Source of the DNA: Armatimonadota bacterium
GTDB lineage: Bacteria; Armatimonadota; Fimbriimonadia; Fimbriimonadales; Fimbriimonadaceae
Direction: 5' to 3'
NCBI GenBank assembly: GCA_021413725.1
Contig: JAIOPU010000060.1
Location: 1 to 34,184, forward strand
DNA length: 34,184 bases
The notes beneath the pieces were generated by a model. It was not told where the DNA came from, made no database searches, and saw nothing but the letters and a program-made list of their open reading frames with translations. Below, one piece after another: positions 2,464-17,291 of the stretch; position 1 is the stretch's first letter, and each line of letters starts with the position of its first letter. The position numbers and the translations under genes are program-made.

Positions 2464-4182
2464 TTAGGCGGGACCGTATTGCGCTTCGTGCAAGCGCTGA
2501 TAAACTCCGGCGGCACTGACTAAGTCTTCGTGCCGCCCTTGTTCCGCAACGCCGGTCTCATCCACCACAACGATACGATCGGCGTTTTGTATGGTCGCCA
2601 AACGATGCGCAATCACCAGCGTCGTCCTTCCTAAAGAAAGCTCGGCGAGCGATGCTTGGATCAAGCGTTCTGTTTCGGTATCTAGAGCAGACGTAGCCTC
2701 ATCCAAGATCAAGATAGGCGGGTTCTTCAGAAACATTCTCGCGATCGCCATCCTCTGCTTCTGTCCACCCGAAAGCTTAACGCCCCGCTCACCGGTCAGA
2801 GTGTCCAGACCCTCCGGCAGTTGTTCGATCATCTCAAAGAGTCGCGCTCGCTTCGCCGCGTCCATGATCTCATCGTCCGTTGCGTCAAGCCTTCCGTAGG
2901 CGATATTCTGCCGAATCGTCCCCGCGAACAAGAACACGTCCTGCTGAACAATCCCGATGTTCTTTCGCAAAGAAGCCAGCGTCATATCCCGAATGTCGAT
3001 TCCATCGACCGTGATTCGTCCCGAGTCCAAGTCGTAAAAACGCGGCAACAGAGAGCAAAGCGTCGTTTTTCCCGCCCCGCTTGGCCCGACGAATGCCACC
3101 GTTTCTCCCGCCTTTAGGTGCAAATTGATGTCCCGAAGCACCGTCTTGTGTTCGTCGTAACCGAAAGTTGCCGACTCAAAGACAATGTCCCCGCGTAATG
3201 TTCCGACCTCGACTGCGCCCGGGAGATCGGCGATATCCGGTTCGGTGTCGAGCAATTCGGTATAGCGCTTGAACCCCGCAATACCCTTGGGATAGGTCTC
3301 CAACACGGCGTTGATCTTCTCGACCGGGCGGAAAAAGACATTCACCAAGAGCAAGAAGCCCATGAATCCGCCGACGGTGAGTTGGTTATGAAGGACAAAG
3401 TACGCCCCAGCCACCATAACGGAAAGTTGAACAAGACGCATCGTCATGTAACTCAGCGACATGCTCATCGACATGAGCCGATAGGCATCCAATTTGGTCT
3501 CGCGATACAAACCATTGTCCAAGGCGAAAAGCTCTCGCTCGTGATCCTCGTTTGCAAAAGCCTGCACGACCCTGATTCCGCCGACGCTTTCCTGGATGCG
3601 GTTATTGAACTCTCCAACTCGGCCGAATAAAATCCGCATATTGCGGGTCATCGCCCGTCCATATCGGGATGAAATCCACACCATCGGGGGAACAACCGCC
3701 CCTGTGATCAGAGCAAGTTTCATATTGATTCCAAACATCAGCACGAACGCACCGACAAAAGTCATCACCGCGATGAACGCATCCTCTGGCCCGTGATGTG
3801 CAACCTCGCCGACGTCCTCCAAATCCTTAGTCACCCGCGCGACAAGGTGTCCGGTTTTCTGATTGTCATAGAACCTGAACGAGAGTTTTTGAAGGTGGTC
3901 AAAGATCTTTCGTCGCATCTCCGTCTCAATCGCAATCCCGAGCACGTGCCCCCAATAATTGACCACATATTGCAATCCGGTGTTGAGAACATAGATGGCG
4001 AGCAGGCCAAGAGTGGCGGCGATGATGAGTCCCCAGTTCTCGCTGGGAAGGAGACGATCTACAAAAGCCTTCACCGCGAGTGGAAAGGCGAGTTCCAGCA
4101 GTCCAGAAACGACGGCGGACGAAAAATCTAGGATAAACAACCGTCGGTGAGGACGATAGTACGAAAAGAAGCGTTTAAGCAT
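2464..4182 (-). CDS. MsbA-like ABC exporter, fused permease and ATPase
   Basis: The protein has 572 residues, the usual length for a homodimeric type IV ABC half-transporter. The N-terminal transmembrane domain (about 15-310) has six likely helices and the intracellular coupling segment FRFYDNQKTGHLVARVTKDLE. The ATPase has Walker A GPSGAGKT (366-373), a Q-loop at IVQQDVFLF (411-419), signature LSGGQ (470-474), Walker B ILILDE (490-495), a D-loop SALD and the H-loop His526. All catalytic residues are present, so it should be active. The family moves lipids, lipid A precursors, drugs or peptides across the inner membrane; the substrate cannot be read from sequence. It stands alone, convergent with a PEP-CTERM gene and divergent from a PilZ-like gene. 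Confidence 0.93.
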   Translation of the reverse strand: MLKRFFSYYRPHRRLFILDFSSAVVSGLLELAFPLAVKAFVDRLLPSENWGLIIAATLGLLAIYVLNTGLQYVVNYWGHVLGIAIETEMRRKIFDHLQKLSFRFYDNQKTGHLVARVTKDLEDVGEVAHHGPEDAFIAVMTFVGAFVLMFGINMKLALITGAVVPPMVWISSRYGRAMTRNMRILFGRVGEFNNRIQESVGGIRVVQAFANEDHERELFALDNGLYRETKLDAYRLMSMSMSLSYMTMRLVQLSVMVAGAYFVLHNQLTVGGFMGFLLLVNVFFRPVEKINAVLETYPKGIAGFKRYTELLDTEPDIADLPGAVEVGTLRGDIVFESATFGYDEHKTVLRDINLHLKAGETVAFVGPSGAGKTTLCSLLPRFYDLDSGRITVDGIDIRDMTLASLRKNIGIVQQDVFLFAGTIRQNIAYGRLDATDDEIMDAAKRARLFEMIEQLPEGLDTLTGERGVKLSGGQKQRMAIARMFLKNPPILILDEATSALDTETERLIQASLAELSLGRTTLVIAHRLATIQNADRIVVVDETGVAEQGRHEDLVSAAGVYQRLHEAQYGPA

Positions 4183-4985: not shown

Positions 4986-5054
4986 GCGATTTGGCACTTA
5001 TTTACTTCTTTTTCTCCAAAACTTACGAAAAACCTAATTTTTTGAATGAAAATA

Positions 5055-5264
5055 CTTCGATCTTTTGATTAAAGATCGAGGTTTTTTGATTAAGAATCAA
5101 GGTTTTTTGATAAAGGAAGCTCTTCTTTTATCAAAAGATCAAGGTTTTTTATCAAAGAATCGAGGTCTTTTGATTAAGTATCGAGGTTCTTTGATTGAAG
5201 ATCGAAGTCTTTTCATAAGATAAGCTCATCTTTTGATTAAAAATCGAGGTCCTTCTATTGGAAT
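5055..5264. repeat. Ten-unit tandem array with exact 21-bp period
   Basis: The AT-rich gap splits into ten units of exactly 21 bases with no indels. Unit starts are 5055, 5076, 5097, 5118, 5139, 5160, 5181, 5202, 5223 and 5244. Type A begins TCGAGG or TCAAGG, followed by a T-tract and GATTAAG. Type B (5055, 5118, 5223) begins CTTCGAT or AGCTC, followed by TCTTTTGATTAA. T-tracts repeat every two helical turns, which predicts bent DNA. One frame reads a degenerate heptad (RGFLIKN, QGFLIKE) but lacks ATG and has a stop, so coding is unlikely. The flanks (4986-5054 and 5265-5360) hold nothing else clear. Confidence 0.9.
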
Positions 5265-5360
5265 TGCGAGTCGGACCATCCAAATGGCTTAACCTTCCTT
5301 TGGCCCCGTGCCGTAGCAATCCGGGTCTCGCACCAACATCATGGCGGGTTACTTTTTCTC

Positions 5361-7697
5361 TTGGCGTCTTCGGTTGCGTTCGCGCAGCCAGTCCCTTCCG
5401 CCTTGGACACGGTTCGGAAGCTTGAAACCGACCTGAACTTCGACAGCATGTATCCGCGGCGTTCCTACCTCGGCAAGACAGCCGCGCCCCAGGGATGGAG
5501 TCACGACGACCGCTTTTTGGCTTACACTTGGAACCCGTACGATATCCGCAGCAGCGATCTCTTTCTCTTCGACTCGCGATCGGGCAAGACCGAGAGGCTT
5601 ACGAGCATTGAGATGATGGCAAAATTCGACCGCGACTCCAAACTCGCGATTGACTTCATCAAAAAAGATGACGAAAGAATCACAAAATGGGACGGCCTCT
5701 CTGATAATGAATGGCGAACCGAGCGACAGAAATTTAAGGAAGAGCAAGAGAAAAAGAAGAAACCCGATCCAAGTTATCCCGGAATTGGAGGCATCGCTTG
5801 GGCAAAGAAATCCAATGAATTCTTAATGCTATTCCGCGGCGACATTTGGCGTTGGAAAGTCGGAGAATCTGCACCCAAACGCATCACCCAAACTCGCGAA
5901 GCAGAATTCAATATTGAATACTTGCCTGACGATAGTGGCTTTGTTTTCCGGCGCGGTAACGGAGTGTACAAGATCAAGTTTGGCAGCGAGTTTGTCCGAC
6001 AAATTAACCCCGAACTCCCTGACGGCGCGGAATTTGGTGGGTACAGTCTAAGTCCCGACGGAACGAAGATGCTCGTCACCGGTTCGAAGCCAGGTGCACC
6101 TGATCGACAAGTTGATTGGATCAGTTACCGAGAACGATTTGCGCAAGCCAAGAAGACGGCAAGAGGTGTTGCCGAAGACGACTTCCAAGGTCAAACCTTG
6201 ATGTACTTATTCGATATCACGGATAAGGCTCTGGATGATGTGGACTCCGATCAAAAACCTTATGAATTCTATAAGTGGGCAGGTGGAGAAGAATGGCAGT
6301 ACTTTAGCATCAGTGACAACCCTTGGTCACCGGATGGTTCGAACTTAGTCTACAGTAGCTATAAGCGCGATAAGCGTGAATGGAAGATTCAAGAAGTAAA
6401 CCCGAGGGTCCGCAACATTACCACTCTTTGGGAAGGCAAAAGCGATGGTGAGCATCAAACTCCCCAATTCACTCAACCTTTTTACACTGCAGATGGTAAG
6501 AATGTCGTCGCGCTGCTCGATAAGAGCGGATGGAGACAGGTCCATCTCATCAATCGCGCCACCAAAGCCGAAACTCAACTCACCAAAGGCGATTATGAAA
6601 CTTACCCATTACAACTCAGCGCCGATAAGAAGTCAATCCTAGTTCGCTCCAGCAAGGAATCCTTAGCCCGACGAAACCTCTATCGAGTGAGTCTCTCAAC
6701 AGGGGAGATGACAAACCTGACAACAGGGACCGGTGTCTATACCGAGCCGACGATTGCCCACAAGTCGGATAAGATGGCAAGCGTCTTCAGTTCCTGGAAT
6801 AACCTGCGAGAAATGGTTGTCCTCGATGGCGGAAAAGAACAAACAATCACCGAGTCACACAAGAAAGACGCGTTCTGGAAGAACATCAAGCTCAAACCAG
6901 AACTCTTTACTTTCAAGAACCGACACGGCGATGATGTACAAGGATTCATGTTCTTGCCTCCCGGGCTCAATGAGCGCAGTTCCAAGCGTCCGTTGTTTAT
7001 CTATGTCTACGGGGGCCCGTTGGGTCAAGGCAATAGTGTTGTTGACGGTGCATTCGGTAGCTCCGAGTACATGTTCAATCAGTACCTTGCTTACACGCTA
7101 GGCTATGTCACCGTTGTCCTCGATCCACGCGGCAGTAGCGGATACAATGCGCGATTTGGAAAATCAAACTTTGACAATCCCGGCGTCGGACAAACCGAAG
7201 ACCTCAGCGATTGCGTGAAGTTCATGGAGTCCAAGTATCCCATCGACATGACGCGAGTCGGACTTACCGGTTGGTCCTTCGGAGGATGGCAAACTCAGCA
7301 CGCCATGTACACTGCCCCCGAGGTATTCACTCTAGGCATCGCAGGTGCCGGACCGACAGAGTGGCAGAACTATAACAGTTGGTACACGGGCGGCGTTATC
7401 GGGAATACCCCAAAGAACGATCCCCTCTATCTCGACAAGTATTCACTCACCAAGTTTGCCGGTAATCTCAAATCTCCCCTGCTCCTGCTCCACGGCATCG
7501 AAGATACGAACGTCCTCTTCCAAGACACGATCCACATCTACCGAAAACTTCTGCAAGCTGGAAAAGGCCCGCTAGTAGAATTAGCCCTCGACCCCACCGG
7601 CGCCCACGGCATGGGAGGAGACATGGACACCCGCGACCGCCACGCGATTTACCTCGAGTTCATCGCTAAGCACTGGGGAGCGAAAAAAGCCGACTAG
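5361..7697 (+). CDS. Prolyl oligopeptidase family (S9) serine peptidase, exported
   Basis: The protein has 778 residues from TTG 5361. An N-terminal beta-propeller-type region (WSHDDRFLAYTWNPYD, YSLSPDGTKML, WSPDGSNLVYSSY blades, to about residue 500) precedes an alpha/beta-hydrolase domain. The oxyanion region is YVYGGP, the nucleophile Ser639 is in GWSFGG, Asp715 is in HGIEDTNV and His749 is in GAHGMG. This triad is typical of DPP-IV/acyl-aminoacyl peptidase-like S9 enzymes, which cleave short peptides after Pro or other residues. A signal peptide (LLFLLASSVAFA, then QPVPS) spans the annotated start, and the frame is open upstream to 5241 without ATG, GTG or TTG. The true start is therefore unresolved. 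An out-of-frame ATG at 5341 would join the frame if one T were added to the T-run at 5353-5357. Confidence 0.92.
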   Translation: MASSVAFAQPVPSALDTVRKLETDLNFDSMYPRRSYLGKTAAPQGWSHDDRFLAYTWNPYDIRSSDLFLFDSRSGKTERLTSIEMMAKFDRDSKLAIDFIKKDDERITKWDGLSDNEWRTERQKFKEEQEKKKKPDPSYPGIGGIAWAKKSNEFLMLFRGDIWRWKVGESAPKRITQTREAEFNIEYLPDDSGFVFRRGNGVYKIKFGSEFVRQINPELPDGAEFGGYSLSPDGTKMLVTGSKPGAPDRQVDWISYRERFAQAKKTARGVAEDDFQGQTLMYLFDITDKALDDVDSDQKPYEFYKWAGGEEWQYFSISDNPWSPDGSNLVYSSYKRDKREWKIQEVNPRVRNITTLWEGKSDGEHQTPQFTQPFYTADGKNVVALLDKSGWRQVHLINRATKAETQLTKGDYETYPLQLSADKKSILVRSSKESLARRNLYRVSLSTGEMTNLTTGTGVYTEPTIAHKSDKMASVFSSWNNLREMVVLDGGKEQTITESHKKDAFWKNIKLKPELFTFKNRHGDDVQGFMFLPPGLNERSSKRPLFIYVYGGPLGQGNSVVDGAFGSSEYMFNQYLAYTLGYVTVVLDPRGSSGYNARFGKSNFDNPGVGQTEDLSDCVKFMESKYPIDMTRVGLTGWSFGGWQTQHAMYTAPEVFTLGIAGAGPTEWQNYNSWYTGGVIGNTPKNDPLYLDKYSLTKFAGNLKSPLLLLHGIEDTNVLFQDTIHIYRKLLQAGKGPLVELALDPTGAHGMGGDMDTRDRHAIYLEFIAKHWGAKKAD

Positions 7698-15449: not shown

Positions 15450-15469
15450 GGATTTTGAAAGGAAAAAAA

Positions 15470-16087
15470 ATGAGAAATCTCAAAACTCTCGCTGTAGTTG
15501 CAGCGATGCTCTCCGTAGTCGGATCGGCTTCAGCCCAAATCATGACCAGCTCCGCTGCTTTCCAAGCTGCTATCGCGAATGACCCGGGTCAATTCAACAA
15601 CCCACTCGGTTCTTCCACGGCAAACTGGAATGGCGGAACGCCGAACATGGCTTACACCGTTACCGCTACTCCCATTGCTGGACTCTACAGCGATGGCAAC
15701 TTCATTGGCGTCAACAATAATGGCAGCGACCTACTCATCACCTTCACAAGCGGCAACGTTCGAGCAGTGGGTGGAAACTGGTTCCACACTGACTTTAGCG
15801 ATAACTTCCGGCCACAAGGAGTTACTTTGACTTACAACGATGGCACGGTGGATACCTACACCCCAGGATCAGCATCAGACTTCCATGGTTACGTATCAGC
15901 TTCCCCAATTCTGTGGGTCAAGATGTCGAAAAACTCACCGTACATCGACTCTACTGGAACTTCTATAGCGGTCTGGGCTTCGCTTGATAACCTCGTCACT
16001 TCATCCCACGGTGCCGTCCCAGAGCCAGGTTCACTCCTCGCTCTCGGTCTCGGCGCAGTCGCTATGATGCGACGAAAGCGAAACTAG
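15470..16087 (+). CDS. PEP-CTERM sorting-domain exported protein
   Basis: A protein of 205 residues from ATG 15470, chosen because AAAGGA lies eight bases upstream and the signal peptide begins there (MRNLKTLAVVAAMLSVVGSA, cleavage near ASAQ). The tail is VPEPGS, LLALGLGAVAMM, RRKRN. The body (GTPNMAYTVTATPIAGLYSDG, then SDLLITFTSGNVRAVGGNWFHTD, DGTVDTYTPGSASDFHGYVS) resembles small surface proteins with a single beta-sandwich. I know no specific role. The tail is very close to that of the divergent 14597-15253 protein although the bodies differ, so only the sorting signal is shared. Confidence 0.87.
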   Translation: MRNLKTLAVVAAMLSVVGSASAQIMTSSAAFQAAIANDPGQFNNPLGSSTANWNGGTPNMAYTVTATPIAGLYSDGNFIGVNNNGSDLLITFTSGNVRAVGGNWFHTDFSDNFRPQGVTLTYNDGTVDTYTPGSASDFHGYVSASPILWVKMSKNSPYIDSTGTSIAVWASLDNLVTSSHGAVPEPGSLLALGLGAVAMMRRKRN

Positions 16088-16112: not shown

Positions 16113-16145
16113 AACAGAGGTGAGGGAGAATCCCTCGCCTCTGTT
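16113..16145 (+). terminator. Intrinsic terminator of PEP-CTERM gene
   Basis: AACAGAGGTGAGGGA pairs with TCCCTCGCCTCTGTT (15 pairs, one G-T) around a GAA loop, 25 bases after the stop. The following T-run is short (TTT including the last stem base). A smaller CTAGTTC/GAACTAG hairpin overlaps the stop region. Confidence 0.75.
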
Positions 16146-16171: not shown

Positions 16172-16304
16172 AAAACCTCACCCCAGTTCCCTTCGGTCAC
16201 AGGCCCTCTCCCTCACGGAGAGGGAAAATTGCAACAAATCTACCGAATGCGTTGCTTCTCCCCGAGGGAGAAGCCGGTGAGGCACGAACCGGATGAGGGT
16301 TTTT
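16172..16304. repeat. MITE-like intergenic element with imperfect terminal inverted repeats
   Basis: The ends AAAACCTCACCCC and GGATGAGGGTTTT are imperfect inverted repeats. Inside are two perfect hairpins: CCCTCTCC/GGAGAGGG and TTCTCCC/GGGAGAA. The 133-base layout resembles the small non-autonomous 'CCCTCTCCC' intergenic elements seen in many bacterial genomes. No transposase is nearby. Part of the left end (TTCCCTTCGGT) recurs at 8506. Confidence 0.55.
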
Positions 16305-16329: not shown

Positions 16330-16518
16330 TCAAACACGATTATTCGAACGACAGAAACGATTGTTCGAACGGTCGAATAACTCTTTCTCTTAAGAAACTT
16401 TCCTTTTCGAACCTTCGAAAGAGATTTTCTCTTAAGCAAGAAGCAATTTTTCCTGCTCGAATAAGTTCTTTTGTAGCTCGAATAACTTTTTTTCTTACTC
16501 GAATATGTTTTTTTCTTG
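16330..16518. repeat. Second 21-bp-periodic array, TCGAA-based, about nine units
   Basis: Unit starts at 16330, 16351, 16372, 16393, 16414, 16435, 16456, 16477 and 16498 give nine 21-base units without indels. TCGAA occurs at 16344, 16365 and 16407 (phase 1) and at 16373, 16415, 16457, 16478 and 16499 (phase 2). All spacings within a phase are 21 or 42. Best-conserved units are of the form CTCGAATAAC, T-tract, CTTA. The array is T-tract-rich like that at 5055-5264. One plus frame and one minus frame are partly open, but the resulting peptides are low-complexity heptads with no good start, so I do not call a gene. Confidence 0.88.
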
Positions 16519-16569
16519 GACTATGGAATCAATTACTTAGCTGAGGCTCGGCCTCGGGGGAACCCCATA

Positions 16570-16659
16570 ATGAAAAAAGCAAACAGAAAGGTACCGATTA
16601 CCGGACCAGTTCGACATAGCTCCAGAGGAGCCACGACACACTTCGGAGGGCTTAACTGA
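16570..16659 (+). CDS. Possible 29-residue basic peptide coupled to the next gene
   Basis: ATG 16570 opens a 29-codon frame (MKKANRKVPITGPVRHSSRG, then ATTHFGGLN). Its TGA overlaps the ATG of the next gene as TGATG. The peptide is basic and has no membrane segment. Two small GC-rich hairpins (GAGGC/GCCTC and GGGG/CCCC) lie just ahead of the start, making this region structured. The overlap suggests translational coupling, but the frame is short and could be chance. It may be a leader peptide. Confidence 0.4.
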   Translation: MKKANRKVPITGPVRHSSRGATTHFGGLN

Positions 16660-17291
16660 TGGACTGGATCAAATCCAATCGGCAACTGTTTAAGGTCCAA
16701 GCGGAGCAATTCTCAGCGGGAATTGTGAGTTATGGCGAGGGCCTCAACCTCACGAGCGGCGAGGTTACCGGGTTTGGCGCCCAGTTGACGGTCTACAGCG
16801 ACGATCTCGCTCTCGCGGCTGCGGCTAAAGCGGCATCGGATGCGGCTTACGAAACCATCCTGACCGACCAACGCAACCTCGTGAAGCTCATGCGCAAATA
16901 CAACGTGCGGATGCAGGCCAGCGCAGCAATCAATAACGCCAAGCGCGCAGAAATCGGCATTCCGATCCCGGCGACACCTTCCACCATAGAGCCGAAGACA
17001 GTGACCGGACTGCTTGCCACCGCCTTTGAGAACGGCGAAGTGAAGCTGAAGTGGAACCGAACCGGCAACGCCCAAGGTGTGATTTTCAACATCGAAGTGA
17101 GCGATGATTCGGTGAATTGGGATCTGCTGACGACGAGCACAGCGACGAAGATCAAACTGAGTGGCTACACTCCCGGCGAAAAGAAAACCTTCCGCATCGT
17201 GGCGACCCGGGGAGAACTCATTGCCGGGCCCTCCAACCTTGCTGTGATCTATGACGGCGGCAGCGGAGTTTCCCTCTCGCTTGCGGCTTAG
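16659..17291 (+). CDS. Uncharacterised protein with C-terminal fibronectin type III-like domain
   Basis: A protein of 210 residues with no signal peptide. Residues about 1-100 are helical and Ala-rich (GFGAQLTVYSDDLALAAAAKAA, then DQRNLVKLMRKYNVRMQASAAINNAKR). Residues about 108-200 resemble an FnIII sandwich: VTGLLATAFENGEVKLKWNR, VIFNIEVSDDSVNWDLLTT, PGEKKTFRIVATRGELIAGPS. CGGAGGG lies about ten bases before ATG and is a good ribosome site. Known FnIII proteins mediate extracellular binding, but no export signal is seen. I do not recognise a named family. A strong terminator follows. Confidence 0.75.
   Translation: MDWIKSNRQLFKVQAEQFSAGIVSYGEGLNLTSGEVTGFGAQLTVYSDDLALAAAAKAASDAAYETILTDQRNLVKLMRKYNVRMQASAAINNAKRAEIGIPIPATPSTIEPKTVTGLLATAFENGEVKLKWNRTGNAQGVIFNIEVSDDSVNWDLLTTSTATKIKLSGYTPGEKKTFRIVATRGELIAGPSNLAVIYDGGSGVSLSLAA

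Follow-up and report, generated by a model that had tools for sequence, protein, structure and literature searches.

Tandem 21-bp palindromic arrays of changing sequence upstream of an fn3-family gene in Armatimonadota and other bacterial phyla

ParMRC-type centromeres (parC) and iteron arrays consist of tandem sites, set in phase with the helix, to which a dimeric DNA-binding protein binds; they lie upstream of partner genes, and their specificity evolves rapidly. REP/BIME elements, which are associated with RAYT transposases, are tandem palindromic units of alternating orientation that are intergenic and dispersed, the REPs measuring 35–40 bp (PMC2817692, PMC8266576). TIGR-Tas systems have units of about 36 nt, made up of conserved repeats of 8–12 nt and variable spacers of 9 nt, and encode a Tas protein with a Nop domain (PMC12045711). 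Here, we compare these systems with tandem 21-bp arrays found in a member of the Armatimonadota, and with arrays of the same geometry in other phyla; no published description of such a class was found in the open-access literature.

The DNA analysed, termed the window, is a stretch of 34,184 nucleotides with a GC content of 53%. At positions 16330–16518, where GC falls to 34%, it contains about nine imperfectly palindromic units of 21 bp (array 2, given no strand). The sequence TCGAA occurs eight times, at 16344, 16365, 16373, 16407, 16415, 16457, 16478 and 16499, and each site falls at residue 6 or 14 modulo 21; the chance of eight sites being confined to any two residue classes is about 1e-6 by post hoc arithmetic. 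Identity at lag 21 is 0.524 (2000 dinucleotide shuffles gave 0.275 ± 0.037), and none of the 2000 shuffles matched array 2, whether at lag 21 or at the maximum over lags 8–63. The repeat is thereby confirmed as real. The first-pass annotation of this DNA had proposed a 21-bp periodic array with eight TCGAA sites in two phases, which these values bear out, and had named shuffled DNA as a control that might refute it; shuffling never yields equal periodicity, and the arrays are not limited to two. Tandem Repeats Finder reports only the last third of array 2 (16447–16518, period 21). The array as a whole is mirror-symmetric about 16412.5, with one pair of inverted arms at 16340–16368 and 16457–16485 and another at 16389–16411 and 16414–16436. 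It is because of this symmetry that TCGAA appears in two phases, which represent one half-site in opposite orientations to the left and right of the centre and are not two families. The TTAAG end is confined to two units. When the genome itself was searched with the exact pattern and by BLAST, the sole match was array 2, and no sequence partner was detected.

Approximately 140 bp downstream of the end of array 2 begins an open reading frame for a 210-aa protein (16659–17291, + strand) that belongs to a family with 27 copies in this genome. The AlphaFold model of its product (mean pLDDT 88.8) predicts a helical hairpin at the N terminus, in which a single long helix spans residues 33–87, and a C-terminal domain whose fold matches fn3 domains; the fold search returned nothing beyond fn3. 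No Pfam or NCBIfam model matches the protein above its cut-off, fn3 (PF00041) scoring 13.2 bits against a gathering cut-off of 25. Searches by fold, Pfam and NCBIfam matched the linked protein to no DNA-binding fold and to no RNA-binding family, and the helical N-domain of the family is close to neutral, with a mean net charge of −0.9, rather than basic. Relatives occur in Armatimonadota, Planctomycetota and Acidobacteriota. Attention had been drawn previously to the PEP-CTERM gene on the other side of array 2 (15455–16087); the important neighbour is instead the downstream frame, whose family repeatedly bears arrays. Regulation of a neighbouring gene by array 2 is possible.

Further elements can be read from the sequence around the array. 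The PEP-CTERM gene is followed by a terminator-like hairpin (16113–16145, + strand), and directly 5′ of array 2, at 16176–16300, lies a REP-like inverted element (CTCACCCC...GGTGAGG, CCCTCTCCCTCACGGAGAGGG); GC-rich hairpin elements akin to it flank several further arrays. Between array 2 and the gene there is a putative hairpin, GAGGCTCGGCCTC (16543–16555, + strand), which is also present at loci L061 and L062. A putative leader frame of 29 codons (MKKANRKVPITGPVRHSSRGATTHFGGLN; 16571–16660, + strand) overlaps the start of the family gene at TGATG, and its GGAGG motif is also the ribosome-binding site of that gene; the close paralogues at L061 and L062 likewise have similar leader frames in front of them. 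An Rfam scan of the window returned only a tRNA.

The association between arrays and this gene family extends well beyond one locus. Regions upstream of 109 family genes, drawn from the same genome, from relatives and from named genomes in other phyla, were scanned at lags 12–69 (two loci, L099/L128 and L125/L129, were counted twice through different collections). Strong periodicity, defined as z of at least 6, was present in 54 of the 109 regions, at lag 21 in 26, lag 42 in 24, lag 63 in three and lag 22 in one. In a second sample of 40 regions, taken mainly from genera g21 and g16, 18 were periodic, all at 21, 42 or 63; one of the 18 (L350 = L036) overlaps the first set. Many family members have the array, of about 8–15 tandem units, 100–400 bp upstream of the gene; such arrays occur, among other named hosts, in Chthonomonadaceae, in Pyrinomonadaceae and further Acidobacteria, and in Tepidisphaera and other Phycisphaerae. 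Linkage of array and family gene thus holds across several phyla. An array is not obligatory, as around half of the family genes in the 109-region scan have no detectable one, most Phycisphaerales copies among them. Across 805 kb of sampled DNA, the remaining periodic stretches have scattered periods and fall mostly within open reading frames. Two genomes without good family matches (G007 and G062) had no 21-bp array in 400 kb, a comparison of low power given that G021, with 11 family copies, also had none in 200 kb. No DNA-binding gene was seen to accompany the arrays consistently.

Individual loci show additional features. At L136 (1347–1579) the array upstream of the family gene has a period of 22 rather than 21, and a 21-bp array lies about 1 kb further up. 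In three planctomycetes (L130–L132), a strongly conserved leader separates the array from the family gene, upstream of the start at 3001; this leader may extend the family protein in frame at its N terminus by a basic stretch rich in Gly and Arg (MPDPTPVPAQKAHKGGGGRRGRKAGAP).

Within the genome that contains the window, a fragmented draft, at least 25 arrays of 21 bp were seen. Together with the arrays of other phyla and the silent open-access literature, this upholds the earlier suggestion of a genome-wide class of DNA arrays that is apparently undescribed. Some arrays are solitary: three (L011, L187 and L208) turned up when some 518 kb of this genome beyond the window was sampled irrespective of arrays, and array 1 of the window (5025–5272, no strand), upstream of a DPP-IV-like gene, is another. 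In the latter gene (5361–7697) no clear in-frame ATG precedes the signal peptide, so its start or the assembly may be off. BLAST of all arrays against the genome revealed sequence classes. The C106 array matches that of C180 (83% over 181 bp, E 1e-49); C238 groups with C153 and C57, C246 with C159 and C282, C99 with C253, and C253 with C160, while the array of C125 (gene-linked, L074) groups with array 1 and the solitary array of C224. Each class numbers one to four arrays, and each of the six classes followed comprises a gene-linked member and one or more solitary ones. Arrays 1 and 2 had been taken for one repeat family, an idea that stands for their geometry and fails for their sequence, the pair not being among those that share 11-mers above chance. 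For this reason a TCGA/T-tract motif joining the two was rejected, and the TCGA core, T-tract and TTAAG do not serve as a family signature, other arrays being GC-rich with different cores.

The rims of many arrays (L074, L068, L070, L246, L252, L253 and L011) carry a 10-bp motif, TTTGAACCTA / TAGGTTCAAA. Array zones account for 1.5% of the DNA sampled from this genome and hold seven of the motif's 16 copies; the motif also occurs in another genus (G084, locus L336). In genome G016, a solitary 21-bp array (L274, 11019–11437) lies between apparent inverted repeats (TTGCCAGACCGGG...CCCGGTCTGGCAA) separated by some 420 bp; it resembles a small insertion, and related repeats occur nearby in the same genome.

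Comparison of orthologous loci shows rapid turnover. In genus g21, genomes G085 and G086 encode family proteins that are 92% identical; their leaders are conserved, and their arrays can be aligned with a gap of exactly one 21-bp unit; the first-pass annotation had suggested comparing strains for changes in unit number. The G084 orthologue, at 70–72% protein identity, retains the leader and the period with units of new sequence, so the period of an array outlives its sequence. Units in genus g18 are still recognisably related at 76% protein identity, and arrays beside related proteins in different Acidobacteria have no common sequence. Arrays therefore gain and lose whole 21-bp units and accumulate substitutions, while period and mirror symmetry persist.

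Unit sequences are unlike at nearly every locus, and GC ranges from 0.30 to 0.75. What the arrays have in common is geometry alone: they are non-coding runs of about ten units, tandem imperfect palindromes set two helical turns apart. Units are contiguous, without spacers, and up to 0.98 identical to one another in the best arrays. The palindrome axes are spaced by 10.5 or 21 bp, complementarity at the best dyads is 0.52 against 0.27 when the axis is shifted, and the centre of each palindrome consists of two to four bases without symmetry.

No whole number of base pairs below 21 makes up a whole number of turns of B-DNA, and the simplest reading of a palindromic repeat fixed at this length despite sequence drift is selection for a symmetric protein that would bind side by side on one helix face. 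Our preferred reading, to which we assign a probability of about 0.42, is that the array is coupled to the fn3-family gene and provides, as double-stranded DNA, the docking platform of a symmetric DNA-binding factor. A dimeric or oligomeric factor would bind side by side along one face of the helix and, once docked, would control or mark the linked gene. Each locus would drift towards a site sequence of its own, and solitary arrays of the same class would either offer that factor additional binding sites or have spread as copies of the gene-linked array. This reading is favoured by periods of 21, 42 and 63, by palindromes that are non-coding and neutral as to strand, by the gap of one unit, the solitary partners and the linkage across phyla. 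It is weakened by the arrayless half of the family genes, the lack of a co-travelling DNA-binding gene, the near-neutral N-domain, and solitary array L208 (C180), which sits between convergent genes and is therefore left without explanation by promoter regulation. The helical-turn argument is one that we infer from the number 21, and the array at L136 has a period of 22. ParMRC and iteron arrays may offer a good functional analogy in their helical phasing, placement upstream of a gene and rapid sequence change; the arrays differ in being chromosomal and numerous in each genome, no ParM, ParR, Rep or partition gene was recognised at the array loci read, and the L136 family protein has no relatives in plasmid and phage collections.

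Two other readings compete most closely with a docking platform: a dispersed repeat of the BIME type and an array that acts as RNA. The first, a serious contender that we nevertheless judge rather unlikely, would be a non-autonomous palindromic repeat copied around the genome, with the family genes as sites where it accumulates or is tolerated. The arrays resemble REP/BIME elements in being palindromic, tandem, alternating in orientation, intergenic (one lies in a convergent gap) and dispersed, and in forming sequence classes inside one genome; members of a class also occur as solitary copies, the edge motif is enriched at arrays, and the genome (G000) encodes four Y1 (REP-type) transposases (PF01797). 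However, no 21-bp array lies within 1.5 kb of these four genes, whereas a RAYT (Y1/HUH) gene would be flanked by its repeat, and classes of one to four arrays contrast with more than 100 copies of one palindrome. The period is 21 bp rather than 35–40 bp, geometry but not sequence is common between genomes, and attachment to one gene family across phyla while sequence changes is unexpected of a transposing repeat. As a separate observation, two of the Y1 genes (C160, 6936–7265, and C266, 8113–8448) lie about 1–2 kb from a solitary array, on C160, or from a family gene, on C266, which may be chance.

Alternatively, the arrays could be transcribed into tandem hairpins or guide-like RNAs, comparable to TIGR arrays, that form a ribonucleoprotein with the fn3-family protein. 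They share with TIGR-Tas dual alternating units, 5–15 repeats, an adjoining protein gene and a repeat sequence specific to each locus; inverted symmetry with two to four unpaired central bases would suit hairpins, and so could covariation within units (3940 against 3696 ± 25 on permutation, a value inflated by the shared ancestry of duplicated units). Yet G-U pairs are not in excess, numbering 434 where 466 would be expected (p 0.24), and RNA folding z is alike on both strands (p 0.55), on which grounds RNA hairpins on the gene strand were rejected. Units of 21 or 42 bp, contiguous and in the best arrays nearly identical, leave no room for the variable spacers of TIGR arrays or for the unique spacers that, with invariant repeats and cas genes, mark CRISPR; nothing about RNA obviously calls for an unvarying period of 21 bp, and the near-neutral linked protein, a modelled helical hairpin plus fn3, matches neither a Nop domain nor an RNA-binding family. 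We regard an RNA array as unlikely.

A further proposal, which we consider improbable, is that the fn3-family protein binds its own upstream array, in autoregulation or DNA coating, each paralogue having its specific array sequence. It would account for one private-sequence array per paralogue and fast co-divergence, and the pairing of gene-linked with solitary members in the six classes fits it too; the near-neutral helical domain and the lack of a match to any DNA-binding fold speak against it, as does the fact that, in different Acidobacteria, related proteins have arrays with no sequence in common. The fn3-family protein accordingly stays one candidate binder within the docking reading, and is not assumed to be the binder since its helical domain is not basic.

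A neutral minisatellite or chance periodicity of AT-rich DNA is very improbable: array 2 is AT-rich and units are gained and lost, but its periodicity exceeds that of every shuffle, other arrays reach 75% GC, and where a neutral process would yield many periods, 53 of the 54 strong signals fall at multiples of 21 while periods elsewhere in the 805 kb are scattered. Promoter variable-number tandem repeats (contingency loci) likewise vary in unit number between related species; the present arrays differ in being palindromic and fixed at 21 bp across phyla whatever their sequence. Heptapeptide coding (21 bp being seven codons) has a negligible likelihood and was rejected by the mod-3 test, for despite an 83-codon open frame across array 2 and one open frame in several other arrays, substitutions show no codon phase (mean p 0.51), frame, strand and peptide are inconsistent, and others, such as array 1, have stops in all six frames.

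Conservation in non-coding DNA is usually recognised from similar letters. In these arrays the letters turn over inside a single genus, whereas the spacing and the mirror symmetry are retained from phylum to phylum, and sequence-similarity searches consequently miss the arrays. A simple search rule, periodicity at lags 21 and 42 upstream of family genes, can be applied to any genome collection. More tentatively, and with some doubt on our part, the arrays and genes may form a two-part system spanning phyla, in which selection would hold helical geometry (21 bp, mirror symmetry) beside a dedicated fn3-family protein as sequence drifts; the many mutually distinct array–gene pairs per genome, with their solitary partner arrays, would then amount to sequence-agnostic or locus-private chromosomal addressing. 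For the family itself, an orphan group of proteins, the arrays are the first genomic clue, and they provide a testable case of helical phasing as a conserved trait.
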